Below are positions 4,897 to 28,775 of a stretch of 61,784 nt of DNA, one piece after another. The stretch's first letter is position 1, and the number at the start of each line of letters is the position of its first letter. The notes under the pieces were generated by a model, which was given only the letters and a program-made list of their open reading frames with translations, searched no databases and was not told the origin of the DNA. The DNA is from Flavobacteriales bacterium (GTDB taxonomy: Bacteria > Bacteroidota > Bacteroidia > Flavobacteriales_C > GCA-002722245). The DNA lies in contig JAQXEE010000022.1 of assembly GCA_029251005.1 (NCBI GenBank), positions 1 through 61,784 of the forward strand. Direction: 5' to 3'. The translations under genes were made by a program, and so were the position numbers.

Positions 4897-5868
4897 ATGC
4901 TTTTAAAGGTTGAAAATTTGTCCCTCTCCTATGGAGATTGGAAAGTCCTCGATAAACTTAACTTTGAAATAAATCAAGGTCAGGTGCTTTGTGTTTTAGG
5001 TGAAAGTGGTTGTGGAAAAACAAGTCTTCTAAAAGCAATTAGAGGTTTTATGGATCGGGATGAAGGAGAAATCTACTTCCAAGGAGAGCGTGTTTACAAT
5101 AAATCAGAAAAGCTTGTTCCAGGAACAAAAGGGGTTGCAGTTGTTCATCAAGATTTTCAATTAGAACCCGGATTTACTGTTTTTGATAATATCCGCCATC
5201 ATCTTATACAATATAACAGATCCTATCAACAGAGTAAAACAGAAGAAATAATTCGACTTTGTAAACTTGAAAACATTCAATTCAAGAAATCTAAGGAGCT
5301 ATCAGGGGGGCAAAAACAAAAGGTAGCGTTGGCAAAAGCTTTGATTGAAGAACCGCCTTTATTACTGCTAGACGAACCCTTTAGTAACTTAGATAACATC
5401 TCTAAAACTGAGTTTAAAGCCATTCTAAAAAACGTTGTTAAAGCATTAAATATAGGTCTACTATTTGTTACTCATGATTCAAAAGACGCTCTAACTTTTT
5501 CTGATGAAATTATGGTAATTCAAAATGGAAAACTACTAAAAAAAGACACGCCTCTTAAACTCACTACTACTCCTCCATCTGTATATGCCGCCAAATTATT
5601 AGGATTGACAAACATATTTGAAGGGAGTTTGATTAAAAGTATTACCGATAAATTCATTAAAGACTCAAGTAATTATTGGATTCCACAAAGAAATATAATT
5701 CTTTCGAAAGGAAATACTTTCAAAATTGAAACTGAAGAGTTTTTAGGCGACCAGTTCGTATACCATTTGAGTAACGGAATAATAAATATTTCTATAAAAT
5801 CTTTGGAAAGACTATCGGGTGAAAAATTAAATATTAAATTCAACAATGCAGTTGAAATTAAAGATTAA
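4897..5868 (+). CDS. ABC transporter ATP-binding protein (PotA/CysA/FbpC-like), no permease nearby
   Basis: A 323-residue ABC ATPase. It has Walker A GESGCGKTS (residues 35-43), Q-loop VVHQDFQ, signature LSGGQKQ (135-141), Walker B LLLLDEP (155-161) and H-loop histidine 193 in VTHD. About 90 further residues follow the ATPase core, as in importers of the polyamine, sulfate or iron type that carry a regulatory C-terminal beta domain, though this extension is short. It should energise an inner-membrane transporter, but neither neighbour encodes a permease or binding protein, so the partner must lie elsewhere. The start ATG at 4897 follows the preceding terminator closely. The ATPase call is certain; the substrate is not inferable. 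Confidence 0.85.
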   Translation: MLLKVENLSLSYGDWKVLDKLNFEINQGQVLCVLGESGCGKTSLLKAIRGFMDRDEGEIYFQGERVYNKSEKLVPGTKGVAVVHQDFQLEPGFTVFDNIRHHLIQYNRSYQQSKTEEIIRLCKLENIQFKKSKELSGGQKQKVALAKALIEEPPLLLLDEPFSNLDNISKTEFKAILKNVVKALNIGLLFVTHDSKDALTFSDEIMVIQNGKLLKKDTPLKLTTTPPSVYAAKLLGLTNIFEGSLIKSITDKFIKDSSNYWIPQRNIILSKGNTFKIETEEFLGDQFVYHLSNGIINISIKSLERLSGEKLNIKFNNAVEIKD

Positions 5869-5965
5869 CAGCTGTCTAACCACGAAAATCCACTATCTTT
5901 ATATCTTGAAAATACTACCAATTATCCAAAATTAATTGATAATAAACTTTGTAAACTAACATTCG

Positions 5966-6202
5966 ATGACAAAAGGAATGGAACGCATTATTAATGAATT
6001 AAAAGGCGAGAATAAAACAACAGTAATTGAGCGCCTTTATTCAGAAAATGAAACAGCCAAAGAAACACAAAAATTACGCTTAGCTTCGGATTTAAATAAC
6101 TTGATTTTTTACTTAAATAATCCTGACACAAGACCGGGAGGAGTAAAACAAGAGGATCTTTCCTTGTTTGAAGAATTAAAAATCTCATTGGATAGCCAAT
6201 AA
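5966..6202 (+). CDS. Small hypothetical protein (78 aa)
   Basis: Unrecognised 78-residue protein, charged and predicted mainly helical, with no signal peptide or membrane segment, hence probably cytosolic. A promoter-like TATCTTTA occurs at 5894-5901. It ends one base before the stop of an opposite-strand small gene (stops at 6202 and 6204), so the two are tail to tail. It is supported by being uninterrupted, starting with ATG and filling the gap; without comparison it could still be a chance frame. Confidence 0.5.
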   Translation: MTKGMERIINELKGENKTTVIERLYSENETAKETQKLRLASDLNNLIFYLNNPDTRPGGVKQEDLSLFEELKISLDSQ

Positions 6203-6203
6203 A

Positions 6204-6386
6204 CTATTCAGTGCAACTTGATTCTATAAAACTTTTTGCTGGTAACGGCATGCCCATGTAAGTTTCTACCGCCTTAATTACACCTTCAATTTCTGAATAT
6301 GAATTTTGATTAAAAACCCCCGCCTTTAGCCAATGTTGAATTTGGTTCAAAGCTGAATTGCAATCGTTTAAATCTGAAATTATCAT
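6204..6386 (-). CDS. Small hypothetical protein (60 aa)
   Basis: Unrecognised protein of 60 residues from the ATG at 6386; a GTG one codon further up is also possible. It begins MIISDLNDCNSAL and contains a likely helical pair (IQHWLKAGVF ... YSEIEGVIKAVETYM). No signal peptide or membrane segment is seen. It converges on the small gene at 5966-6202 and is divergent from the sigma factor at 6538. Function unknown. Confidence 0.5.
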   Translation of the reverse strand: MIISDLNDCNSALNQIQHWLKAGVFNQNSYSEIEGVIKAVETYMGMPLPAKSFIESSCTE

Positions 6387-6537
6387 CACTTAATTTTGTT
6401 TAAAACGTAGCACTATTTATAAAGTTGCCTTCCCAATTAATATTTTAACATATTTTACTGTTACCGATCTTGAAAACAACTAATCTAAAGCGGTTAACAT
6501 TTCGAAAATTGTTGTTTTTTTCTTTACATTAGAAGCC

Positions 6538-7107
6538 TTGCGAGCTATTGATTCCAATATAACCGACAATGAGTTACTGATTAAATATAAATCAACTGAA
6601 AACAGTGATTTTTTAGCTGCTTTATTCGAAAGACACCTCCATCTTATTTACGGAGCTTGCTTAAAAAACCTTGAAGATGAAGACAATGCCAAGGATGTTT
6701 GCATGGAGGTTTACGAATTATTATCTATTAAATTAATTCAGCACGAAGTCACACATTTTAAAAGCTGGCTATACCGAGTTACTTTTAATCAATGCATGCA
6801 GTTTCTTCGGAAAAAAAATAAATCGAAAAAAAATATTCAAGAATATCAATTAAACTACAAGGAGGATATGGAATTCTCATTAGAAACACATCCAAGTATT
6901 CAAAAAGAGGAAATATTAACCCACCTTGAAGAATGCATAATGAATTTGAAGGATAGCCAAAAACAATGTATTCAACTTTTTTATTTAAATGAACTATGCT
7001 ATAATCAAATATCAGCTCAAACAAAGCATACTTTGAAGAAAGTAAAAAGCTATATTCAAAACGGAAAAAGAAATTTAAAAATTTGTTTAGAATCGAAAAA
7101 TGGATAA
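6538..7107 (+). CDS. ECF-type RNA polymerase sigma factor
   Basis: A 189-residue sigma-70 family protein of the extracytoplasmic-function class. Region 2 spans about residues 14-90 (LAALFERHLHLIYGACLKNL, DAKDVC-like NAKDVCMEVYELL, then FKSWLYRVTFNQCMQFLRKK). Region 4 lies near residues 125-185 (CIMNLKDSQKQCIQLFYLNELCY then the HTH). It should direct polymerase to a small regulon. The start appears to be TTG at 6538, since the next in-frame Met would remove region 2. Its 3' end overlaps the next gene by 8 bases, and that gene encodes a zinc-finger membrane protein, the usual sigma/anti-sigma arrangement. The inducing signal is unknown. Confidence 0.85.
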   Translation: MRAIDSNITDNELLIKYKSTENSDFLAALFERHLHLIYGACLKNLEDEDNAKDVCMEVYELLSIKLIQHEVTHFKSWLYRVTFNQCMQFLRKKNKSKKNIQEYQLNYKEDMEFSLETHPSIQKEEILTHLEECIMNLKDSQKQCIQLFYLNELCYNQISAQTKHTLKKVKSYIQNGKRNLKICLESKNG

Positions 7108-26430: not shown

Positions 26431-26904
26431 AATAATTTGTCAATGCATTCCAAATACTCCTTAAACGTTGATCAACACGAAAAACTTTTCACAAGTAATA
26501 CTTTTTAATCCGGTAATTATTTTAATGAAAAGAGTGAGAACAATCAAAATTATTATTGGCAGCAAAAAAATACTTTTCCTTGAGGGAATTCAAACATGAC
26601 CAATATTATCTCATTAATAAATGCGATAATACTTGTGGGAAATAGAAGTGAACATGCAAAGAGAAAAACTAGAGAATAAAAGCTATTATTTACAAACAGT
26701 ATTGGGAAATTAATGAATATTTTTTTTTAGTTCCTTTTTACTCAAAACGTTAATATCAATGACAAAAAAGGAGTTAATAGGAGGGAGTTTGTATTCGATT
26801 TACTTTATAATTCACCAAGATTTAATGTTATTTGATAGTTTAACGAAATACATAATAGATTTAACTAATAACAGAACTTAAATAATACAACCATTTCCTA
26901 TTGC

Positions 26905-26931
26905 TTGTATTACTAAGTCGTTATATCTTTA
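26905..26931 (+). promoter_or_regulatory. Promoter of the NUMOD4 gene: TTG and TATCTTTA
   Basis: TATCTTTA at 26924-26931 is preceded by TTG at 26905-26907 (16-base spacer) and another at 26901-26903 (20-base spacer). The expected start lies about 50 bases before the ATG at 26988. Confidence 0.45.
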
Positions 26932-26987: not shown

Positions 26988-27761
26988 ATGTCAAAAATAA
27001 TCATCAACCAAGAGGAAGCTAAATTAATACCTAGATTTAGTTCCTACCATATTAGTGAATCAGGACGTGTTTACAAAACAAGTTCGCCAAAGAGAAAAAT
27101 TAAACCAAAAAAAAACGAGAATTACCTAAAGGAAATAAAATTACATTTTAAAAAAGATAATATTTCATCTCATGGAAGGGTAAGTTTGGTAGATGATAAA
27201 GGGAAACTTCAAAATTTATGCGCAGGTCTATTGGTTGCTTTAACTTTTAAACTTTTTGATACTAATTCAAAAATCACCAAAAAAGATATAAGCTACAAAG
27301 ATGGCAATAGACATAACCTTCATGTATCTAATTTAACACTTGTTGATAAAACTTACCCCAATAGTAAGTTAAAACCTAATCAAATCAAATTAATAAAAAA
27401 GCTAATAAAGAAAGGAGATTCTTTAAGAAAAATAAGTTCGCTTTTCAGTGTTTCTGAAATGCAAATAAATAGAATAAAAACTGGAGAAAATTGGGGTAAC
27501 GGCAAAAGAAAAATCAAAGCTCCTGTAGCACCTTTTATAATCGAAGACGGTAGCATGAGGAAGTATATTGCCACTTTTGAAAGTCAGAAATTAAACTTAA
27601 AAATTAAGAAGCCATTCATCATTAAAAGAAATCCTGAAAATCCCACAGAAAACATAATCCAAGGGATAGTAAAAGGGTTTAAACTTTCACGAAAACACAC
27701 GAATATAACTAGAGCAAAAAAAAGTGTAGAAAGGTTAAATAATTTTTTTTTCAAAACATAA
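26988..27761 (+). CDS. NUMOD4/HTH DNA-binding protein, apparent dead HNH homing endonuclease
   Basis: 257 residues, very basic. Residues about 14-35 match NUMOD4 (IPRFSSYHISESGRVYKTSS). Residues about 60-120 align with the HNH part of free-standing homing endonucleases, but the first catalytic His (normally in VHRLVA) is Gly80 in CAGLLVALTF and the Asn-His of NHxDGN is Ser102-Tyr103 in ISYKDGNRHN. Residues 127-169 form a resolvase-like HTH (LKPNQIKLIKKLIKKGDSLR, then VSEMQINRIKTGENW). The last 70 residues are unassigned. It probably binds DNA without cutting; target unknown. It has its own promoter and sits 9 bases before an SDR gene. Confidence 0.7.
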   Translation: MSKIIINQEEAKLIPRFSSYHISESGRVYKTSSPKRKIKPKKNENYLKEIKLHFKKDNISSHGRVSLVDDKGKLQNLCAGLLVALTFKLFDTNSKITKKDISYKDGNRHNLHVSNLTLVDKTYPNSKLKPNQIKLIKKLIKKGDSLRKISSLFSVSEMQINRIKTGENWGNGKRKIKAPVAPFIIEDGSMRKYIATFESQKLNLKIKKPFIIKRNPENPTENIIQGIVKGFKLSRKHTNITRAKKSVERLNNFFFKT

Positions 27762-27770
27762 CCAAATAGA

Positions 27771-28775
27771 ATGAAAAACATTTTTGTAACTGGAGCTACC
27801 GGCTTTGTAGGAAAATATTTAGTATCCAAATTGATAGAGAACCCAAATAATAGGGTTTTCTTACTAATTCGGAGCAAAAAAAACTTATCTGCAGTTGATA
27901 GGTGTAAGAAACTTTTTGTTGAAAATTCTGATTTAATACTGGATCGTATTGTTCCAATAGAGGGAGAATTAACGAAACCAATGTTTAACTTAAATCAGCA
28001 TGATTTTGAAGAGTTAGCAACTAAAATAAATACGATTTACCATACTGCTGCAACTATAAAGTTTAACCTACCTTACAAAACAGCACATTCTATTAACGTT
28101 GAAGGAACCAAAACATGTATGCTTTTGGCGAAAAAAGCAGGTGAACATTTTGAGCGCTTTCATCATATTAGTACAGCCTATGTTAGTAGGGTTATGGAAG
28201 GTGAGGAAAGAGGTTTCAACAATACCTATGAACAAACTAAATTTGAAGCTGAATTACTGTTTAAGGATATTAAATACACAATTTACAGACCTTCAATAAT
28301 ATCAGGAAGCTCTGAAACTGGTGAAATTTCCTCTAGTAGTGTTATTTACAAGTTCATTATTTTACTTTCGAGACAAATTTTAAGTGCTTTACCAGTTGAT
28401 AATTCCTTTTCCATAAACATTATACCAGTAAATAATTTCGTAGATAAAATGCTAGCAATTGGAGGTGAGCAAAGTTCTGTTGGTAAAACATACCAAATAA
28501 CACATCAAGAAAACACCAATTTCAAGGATTTACTTATTCACGCATCCAAACTTTTGAAGGTTCCACCACCACAATTTATTTCTTCAGATCAAACAAGTGC
28601 TATTCCATTAAAAGTGATGAAACATATTGATGTTTTTATGCCCTACATAATCCAATCACAACAATTTAAACTAAATCACCACGAATTAAACTCTGCTGCC
28701 AAAATACCAAGCGACAATGTAATAAATACTTTCAATCATGTTGTTGACAATTATTTAGCTTTTCAACGAAATTAG
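27771..28775 (+). CDS. Extended SDR, thioester-reductase/fatty acyl reductase-like
   Basis: 334 residues. Rossmann motif TGATGFVG (7-14), the NADP-type LLIRSKK after the second strand, and the catalytic set Ser134/Thr135 (HHISTAYVS), Tyr153 and Lys157 (YEQTK). Sequence such as IVPIEGELTKPMFNL and IYHTAATIKFNLPYKTAHSINVEGTK is typical of the NAD_binding_4 (male-sterility/thioester reductase) group, which reduces acyl thioesters on CoA or carrier proteins. Unlike NRPS terminal reductases it is free-standing. A phosphopantetheinyl transferase lies convergently 190 bases away. Substrate unknown; an epimerase-like role is possible. Confidence 0.78.
   Translation: MKNIFVTGATGFVGKYLVSKLIENPNNRVFLLIRSKKNLSAVDRCKKLFVENSDLILDRIVPIEGELTKPMFNLNQHDFEELATKINTIYHTAATIKFNLPYKTAHSINVEGTKTCMLLAKKAGEHFERFHHISTAYVSRVMEGEERGFNNTYEQTKFEAELLFKDIKYTIYRPSIISGSSETGEISSSSVIYKFIILLSRQILSALPVDNSFSINIIPVNNFVDKMLAIGGEQSSVGKTYQITHQENTNFKDLLIHASKLLKVPPPQFISSDQTSAIPLKVMKHIDVFMPYIIQSQQFKLNHHELNSAAKIPSDNVINTFNHVVDNYLAFQRN

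Follow-up and report, generated by a model that had tools for sequence, protein, structure and literature searches.

The window analysed here, a stretch of 61,784 nucleotides of Flavobacteriales DNA, carries on its forward strand an open reading frame (26988–27761) of 257 codons with no internal stops, so that the full-length frame of the original prediction is intact. The encoded protein comprises an NUMOD4-like part, a catalytically dead HNH-derived part, a helix-turn-helix (HTH) and a novel C-terminal domain. Upstream of it is a 789-bp intergenic region, beyond which lies a divergent PanE-like gene, and 9 bp 3′ of its end there begins a gene for an NAD-dependent reductase-like protein (NAD_binding_4; 27771–28775, forward strand). 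This reductase neighbour is common only to the window and to locus L002 of genome G001, and the reductase gene was not found in genomes G002–G009 at E ≤ 1e-20; it may thus have been gained jointly with the dead-HNH gene, and co-transcription of the two is possible.

The intergenic region contains an 89-bp block (26843–26931, forward strand) that is 95.5% identical between the window and L002, against a synonymous divergence (dS) of 0.44 for the gene, while the remaining intergenic DNA varies. Inside the block is an inverted repeat, TAATACAA/TTGTATTA (26883–26890 and 26905–26912), adjoined by TATCTTTA (26924–26931), which is near to the Bacteroidota −7 motif TAnnTTTG; because the repeat stands beside a −7-like motif, we regard the block as a candidate promoter or operator. 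The suggestion that the gene has its own promoter is thus supported indirectly, by the conservation of this candidate between the two loci. A sigma-70 promoter scan gave 15 matches, which is not above the 13.7 obtained in shuffled sequences, and in the search for RNA families the upstream terminator hairpin alone gave a match, one below threshold and due to chance. Comparison of the upstream regions of all copies revealed no shared operator beyond a Bacteroidota −7-like TATCTTTG, and with no motif common to all of them autoregulation is unsupported.

The window gene is related to the NUMOD4-HNH homing endonucleases of the I-HmuI type. The Pfam matches of its product (P0001) are marginal, with E-values of 0.05 for NUMOD4, 0.08 for HNH_3 and 0.0011 for HTH_7, all under the curated cut-offs, and the NUMOD4 and HNH domain calls therefore needed support from PHROG, profile alignment and fold. 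Although sub-threshold by Pfam, the predicted relationship is upheld by matches to the PHROG HNH endonucleases phrog_59 and phrog_959 (E 1.3e-9 and 3.8e-8), and by comparison of an AlphaFold model of the protein (mean pLDDT 83.7) with viral proteins, which gives 194 matches at E ≤ 1e-3, the best of them (E 3.3e-9) being HNH homing endonucleases. A fold search of the PDB with the whole model gives zero matches at E ≤ 1e-3; for two members of a sister family the connection to I-HmuI (1U3E) is direct, as it is the top PDB match of the L037 model (E 2.9e-6) and is aligned by sequence to L025 (E 3.2e-7). The NUMOD4-like N-terminal part spans residues 14–46 (27027–27125, forward strand) and includes an invariant YHxSESGR; the Pfam NUMOD4 profile finds 13 of the 14 family members, every match being weak or under the cut-off (E 0.0038 at best), and the PHROG and fold matches speak for a module that we call NUMOD4-like. 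An origin in a phage or plasmid was considered and rejected, as P0001 is unmatched in 50,697 phage records, 72,556 plasmids and IMG/VR; the window family looks chromosomal.

The sister family (alignment A3, loci L017–L077) consists of chromosomal, widespread Flavobacteriia NUMOD4-HNH-HTH proteins of about 190–270 amino acids, which keep the H-N-H residues, most of them without an Asp or Asn ahead of the first His. Within one large genus-level group (g53) the conservation of this family is strong, and it thus may have a host role of its own.

To place the active-site positions we used a residue frame running from the window protein through an intact sister to I-HmuI, with 16 intact family sequences set against 29 Flavobacteriia sisters. 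In the HNH fold a His is the general base, with metal ligands on either side, and in I-HmuI Asn87 supports the base (PMC2816704). The corresponding segment of the window protein (27168–27362, forward strand) has model strands at residues 99–103 and 116–120 and is helix-free until residue 130. Ser102 and Tyr103 (27291–27296, forward strand) correspond to I-HmuI D74, a metal ligand, and to H75, which from the work on 1U3E we take to be the general base, consistent with the alignment; at this latter position the family has a Tyr in 15 of 16 sequences and a Phe in the other, whereas all 29 sisters have a His. Gly80 (27225–27227, forward strand), which had been proposed to replace the catalytic His, corresponds instead to I-HmuI His56, a His that is conserved in VHRLVA but is not catalytic, in a column that is A, S or G in 16/16 family members and H (25/29) or Y (4/29) in the sisters. 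The proposal that both catalytic residues are replaced is thus correct as regards the substitutions, but it is Tyr103, not Gly80, that stands in place of the catalytic His75.

The HNH Asn is retained as Asn115 (27330–27332, forward strand; I-HmuI N87) and is invariant in all 45 sequences, 16 from the family and 29 from the sisters, and the DGN scaffold is intact as predicted (D105–N107). Residues 121–122 (27348–27353, forward strand) form a deletion junction at the site of the sisters' HNH alpha helix and final His: a deletion has removed the helix of the ββα motif and the last HNH residue from 16/16 family members, while the final His is present in 27/29 sisters. In the sister model this helix occupies residues 115–123, and it is absent between residues 121 and 129 of the window model. 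We found no member of the window family with an intact H-N-H among the homologues identified, and since the loss is common to all 16 intact sequences and the 29 sisters keep H-N-H it is ancestral to the family and does not reflect decay in the window genome. The central claim of the original prediction, a lost nuclease site on a retained DNA-binding scaffold, is consistent in all of the orthologues found, and this conclusion is stronger than was claimed. We are therefore highly confident that the protein is dead as a nuclease.

It could nonetheless be argued that the protein is an active nuclease with a rearranged active site, and the gene still a selfish homing element; such an element would account for the mobility described below and the solitary copies at many sites, and alignment A1 does contain invariant residues (H21, E24, E49, D69, D105, N110, H112, and N115) from which a new site might be built. 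We consider this unlikely, because the protein has neither the general base nor the HNH alpha helix, and because the end of the single insert examined fits an attC-like site. Moreover, in the intact sisters, too, the loop positions of D105 and H112 hold D/N or, often, H, and these residues thus look structural.

The predicted HTH is likewise intact. It spans residues 126–169 (27363–27494, forward strand), matches HTH_7 at the E-value given above, and has model helices at residues 130–142, 146–153 and 157–165; it includes the near-invariant SEMQINRIKTGENWG block, and SEMQINRIKTGENWGNGKRKIKAP is almost invariant across the family. Beyond it is a domain that the original prediction did not mention, at residues 177–257 (27516–27758, forward strand), which is modelled with a pLDDT of about 86–94 from residue 181. 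This C-terminal alpha/beta domain of ~80 residues has the order alpha-beta-beta-beta-beta-alpha, is conserved in the window family, is missing from the sister family, and has no Pfam match. It also has the lowest dN/dS of any region of the protein (0.07), and it could act in dimerisation or DNA binding.

The family is rare. Genomes of 84,980 species were scanned and yielded 15 near-full-length loci in 14 genomes, with homologues of 47–91% identity in the Flavobacteriales, the Cytophagales (Cyclobacteriaceae) and relatives in the Bacteroidales or Marinilabiliales such as Saccharicrinis; the 16 intact sequences are 46–95% identical to one another. Full-length copies are present in 1/396 and 3/395 sampled genomes, all within the genus of the window, where the gene occurs in the window genome (G000), G001 and G004 and is absent from G002 (91% complete) and G003 (77%); it was not found in five sampled genomes of the other genus of the same taxonomic family. 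Several homologues are in metagenome-assembled genomes (MAGs), for which misbinning is possible, notably for L004. The literature we searched, which is incomplete, yielded no paper on this family.

In the window/L002 lineage the gene is functional. The two copies have a dN of 0.044, a dS of 0.435 and a dN/dS of 0.10, well below 1 as predicted for a gene under purifying selection and within the range of five neighbouring genes on the same contigs (0.09–0.28); the other family pairs give values of 0.05–0.34, with all domains constrained. These values contradict the reading of the gene as a pseudogene on its way out that is intact by chance, and with sixteen intact sequences in hand we regard that reading as extremely improbable, although frameshifts do interrupt two loci, L015 and L016 (both in MAGs), and the second of two tandem copies in genome G733 has an altered HTH motif. 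Of the possibility that the gene is sporadic and decaying, the first part is accurate, as it is rare and found in varied contexts, but decay in sister strains does not apply to the window lineage.

The gene is also mobile. Except in two close pairs, window/L002 and L008/L010, the neighbouring genes vary from locus to locus, and within the genus of the window the copy in G004 is at a different location from the others; presence is sporadic, and outside the close pairs we see no vertical inheritance at a conserved locus. There are several copies in G733, including a tandem pair. The tandem copies lie in L101 (G733:C212) at 321–1100 and 1569–2348, and it is the second of these that has the degraded motif, SEIQINRIITRENQNN. 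The synonymous divergence between G738 and G741 shows recent horizontal transfer, with a dS of 0.42 for the family gene and 45 of 69 four-fold sites identical, against a saturated panB with 27 of 93; G733 and G734 resemble this pattern, with the qualification that G733 is a MAG in which misbinning is possible, while the divergence between G737 and G739 looks vertical. For the window copy we found no empty site with a clean junction in G002 or G003, in which synteny ends at the PanE-like gene just to the left. We also examined terminal inverted repeats and cassette R′ and R″ boxes, which are convincing by eye at L004, L007, L012 and L016; when compared with shuffled sequences only L009 (1/200) and L004 (8/200) beat the controls to any degree, and we have not used these repeats as evidence.

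This distribution bears directly on the proposal that the gene has been domesticated as a settled host regulator, that is, a chromosomal transcription factor with a fixed regulon in the manner of WhiA, a known homing-endonuclease-related transcription factor (PMC3781837). The WhiA precedent, the purifying selection, the conserved upstream block and the synteny between the window and L002 are all in keeping with such a role, and it is possible for that lineage. It does not fit the family, which is rare, mobile and sometimes multicopy or tandem, with differing contexts and recent horizontal transfer evident from dS; the gene was moreover not found in the nearly complete G002 or in the five sampled genomes of the other genus, and is differently located in G004. 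The domestication suggested in the original prediction is therefore not sustained, and we give a fixed chromosomal regulator a rather small chance of being the correct explanation.

A clue to how the gene moves comes from Zobellia, in which it is present in one of nine genomes (G735, Zobellia uliginosa C3R17; locus L006). In genome G750 the flanking sequences are 43 bp apart, and G735 has an insert of ~1.1 kb at that place (L006, about 5891–6990); since the 43 bases of G750 are opposed by 46 diverged ones in L006, the left junction is possibly as far in as 5937. Elsewhere in the same genome, contig C2 contains at about 62–98 kb (loci L151, L152, L123) an integron-like array of ~30 mostly co-oriented cassettes separated by attC-like hairpin spacers of 130 or 190 nucleotides. 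A DNA profile of these spacers matches L006 at 6848–6990 (E 5e-5), ending at the insert boundary, and also L012 at 5793–5892, on the minus strand upstream of the gene; it has no match in the control loci, and detects no attC-like site near the window copy. The Zobellia copy thus most likely arrived as a single cassette placed outside the array. Direct support for this mechanism comes from one locus, and the second is suggestive.

The tyrosine recombinase of the array scores 237 bits with NF040815 and 207 bits with TIGR02249, the latter under the 265-bit cut-off, and we refer to it as XerA/IntI-like; it has ~100 extra N-terminal residues ahead of the SAM-like domain. Beside it in the G735 array is a divergent treble-clef gene, and in four genomes an IntI-like recombinase gene has next to it a divergently oriented gene for a small CxxC treble-clef protein (C-x-x-C...GRSDK.FCS; L151 5324–5704 and L153 5296–5655, minus strand; L154 1444–1866 and L156 3248–3607, plus strand), possibly as part of the integron-like platform. 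The one complete integron that IntegronFinder 2.0 reported for the Bacteroidetes proper is that of Salinibacter ruber (PMC9024848), and the class of XerA/IntI-like cassette arrays in Flavobacteriia to which the Zobellia copy points may thus have been overlooked.

Nine to ten of the homologue-bearing genomes have an IntI-like recombinase of the same class as that of the array (96–126 bits), and the only true IntI observed is that of G733 (470 bits); in G000, G001, G004 and G736 the matches are weaker and Xer-like, at about 80 bits or less, and under 80 bits in the window genome. Most family copies lie outside cassette arrays, and the fold and HTH class are shared with apparently intact relatives in other Bacteroidota. 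One could conclude from these observations that the protein occupies DNA as a protector or competitor, blocking a related active homing endonuclease or an invading element at its target, or that it aids integration of cassettes at non-array sites. This seems distinctly doubtful to us, as no linkage to a nuclease or integrase gene was seen, the window genome has no recombinase of this kind, and PADLOC gives only weak 'HEase' model matches; it is for the weakness of these matches that we have also rejected a role as a defence system. A broader conjecture, that this unnamed nuclease-dead family is one of mobile integron-like cassettes in Bacteroidota encoding a DNA-binding factor that steers the integration or expression of mobile DNA, a selfish cutter having in this way become a mobile DNA-occupying tool, is one we put forward tentatively, and think improbable in that full form.

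The interpretation that we favour, and consider reasonably probable, is that of a mobile, non-cleaving, DNA-binding accessory protein derived from a homing endonuclease. An I-HmuI-like NUMOD4-HNH-HTH homing endonuclease gave rise to a distinct family of Bacteroidota proteins, with cutting lost through replacement of the general-base His by Tyr and deletion of the metal-binding helix, the NUMOD4-like and HTH DNA-binding parts kept, and the C-terminal alpha/beta domain gained. The product would most likely be a sequence-specific DNA binder that does not cleave, for example a regulator or a site-occupying factor, and the gene persists as a mobile accessory gene that spreads horizontally and has travelled as an integron-like cassette on one occasion or more. 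The data above establish the descent from homing endonucleases, the loss of the active site throughout the family, the added domain, the purifying selection and the horizontal mobility, whereas the binding of DNA and its purpose are inferred. The DNA-binding accessory role itself, suggested by the retained parts, we favour only slightly over its negation.

Decay is the usual fate of a homing endonuclease that can no longer cut. In this case an entire family has lost its active site, the catalytic helix with it, and is nevertheless under purifying selection and moving between species. Mobility is thereby separated from self-cutting, and it becomes a testable question what selective benefit a non-cutting homing-endonuclease scaffold confers.

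A comparison with known systems places the family as follows. Because two defining HNH features, the general-base His and the alpha helix, were tested and are both lacking, we do not assign the protein to the HNH nucleases, although its mode of action may resemble that of a homing endonuclease's DNA-binding scaffold. Its sisters share the NUMOD4-HNH-HTH order and the HTH motif SEMQxxRIKxGENWG, but they retain H97-N109-H121 and the helix, have no C-terminal domain, and are 22–31% identical to the window protein. I-HmuI, the HNH homing endonuclease of a phage SPO1 intron, resembles it in the NUMOD4-like strands, the HNH beta hairpin, the D-G-N loop, N87 and the presence of a DNA-binding part C-terminal to these; the window protein departs from it in having S/Y for D74/H75, in deletion of the HNH alpha helix, and in the 80-residue alpha/beta domain after the HTH, and the family has no known intron or homing site. 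The phage HNH endonucleases phrog_59 and phrog_959 are the best family-level sequence matches, while P0001 itself is unmatched in phages. The Zobellia copy resembles an integron cassette in being an insert of one gene with an attC-like hairpin end that matches the hairpins of the array in its own genome; it differs in that the recombinase there is XerA/IntI-like and under the IntI cut-off and the copy lies outside the array, and the window copy is without attC. WhiA differs in belonging to the LAGLIDADG fold class and in its conservation among Gram-positive bacteria, and is not homologous to the window protein; the likeness is a functional one, between predicted or established DNA-binding proteins that derive from homing endonucleases and carry an HTH.
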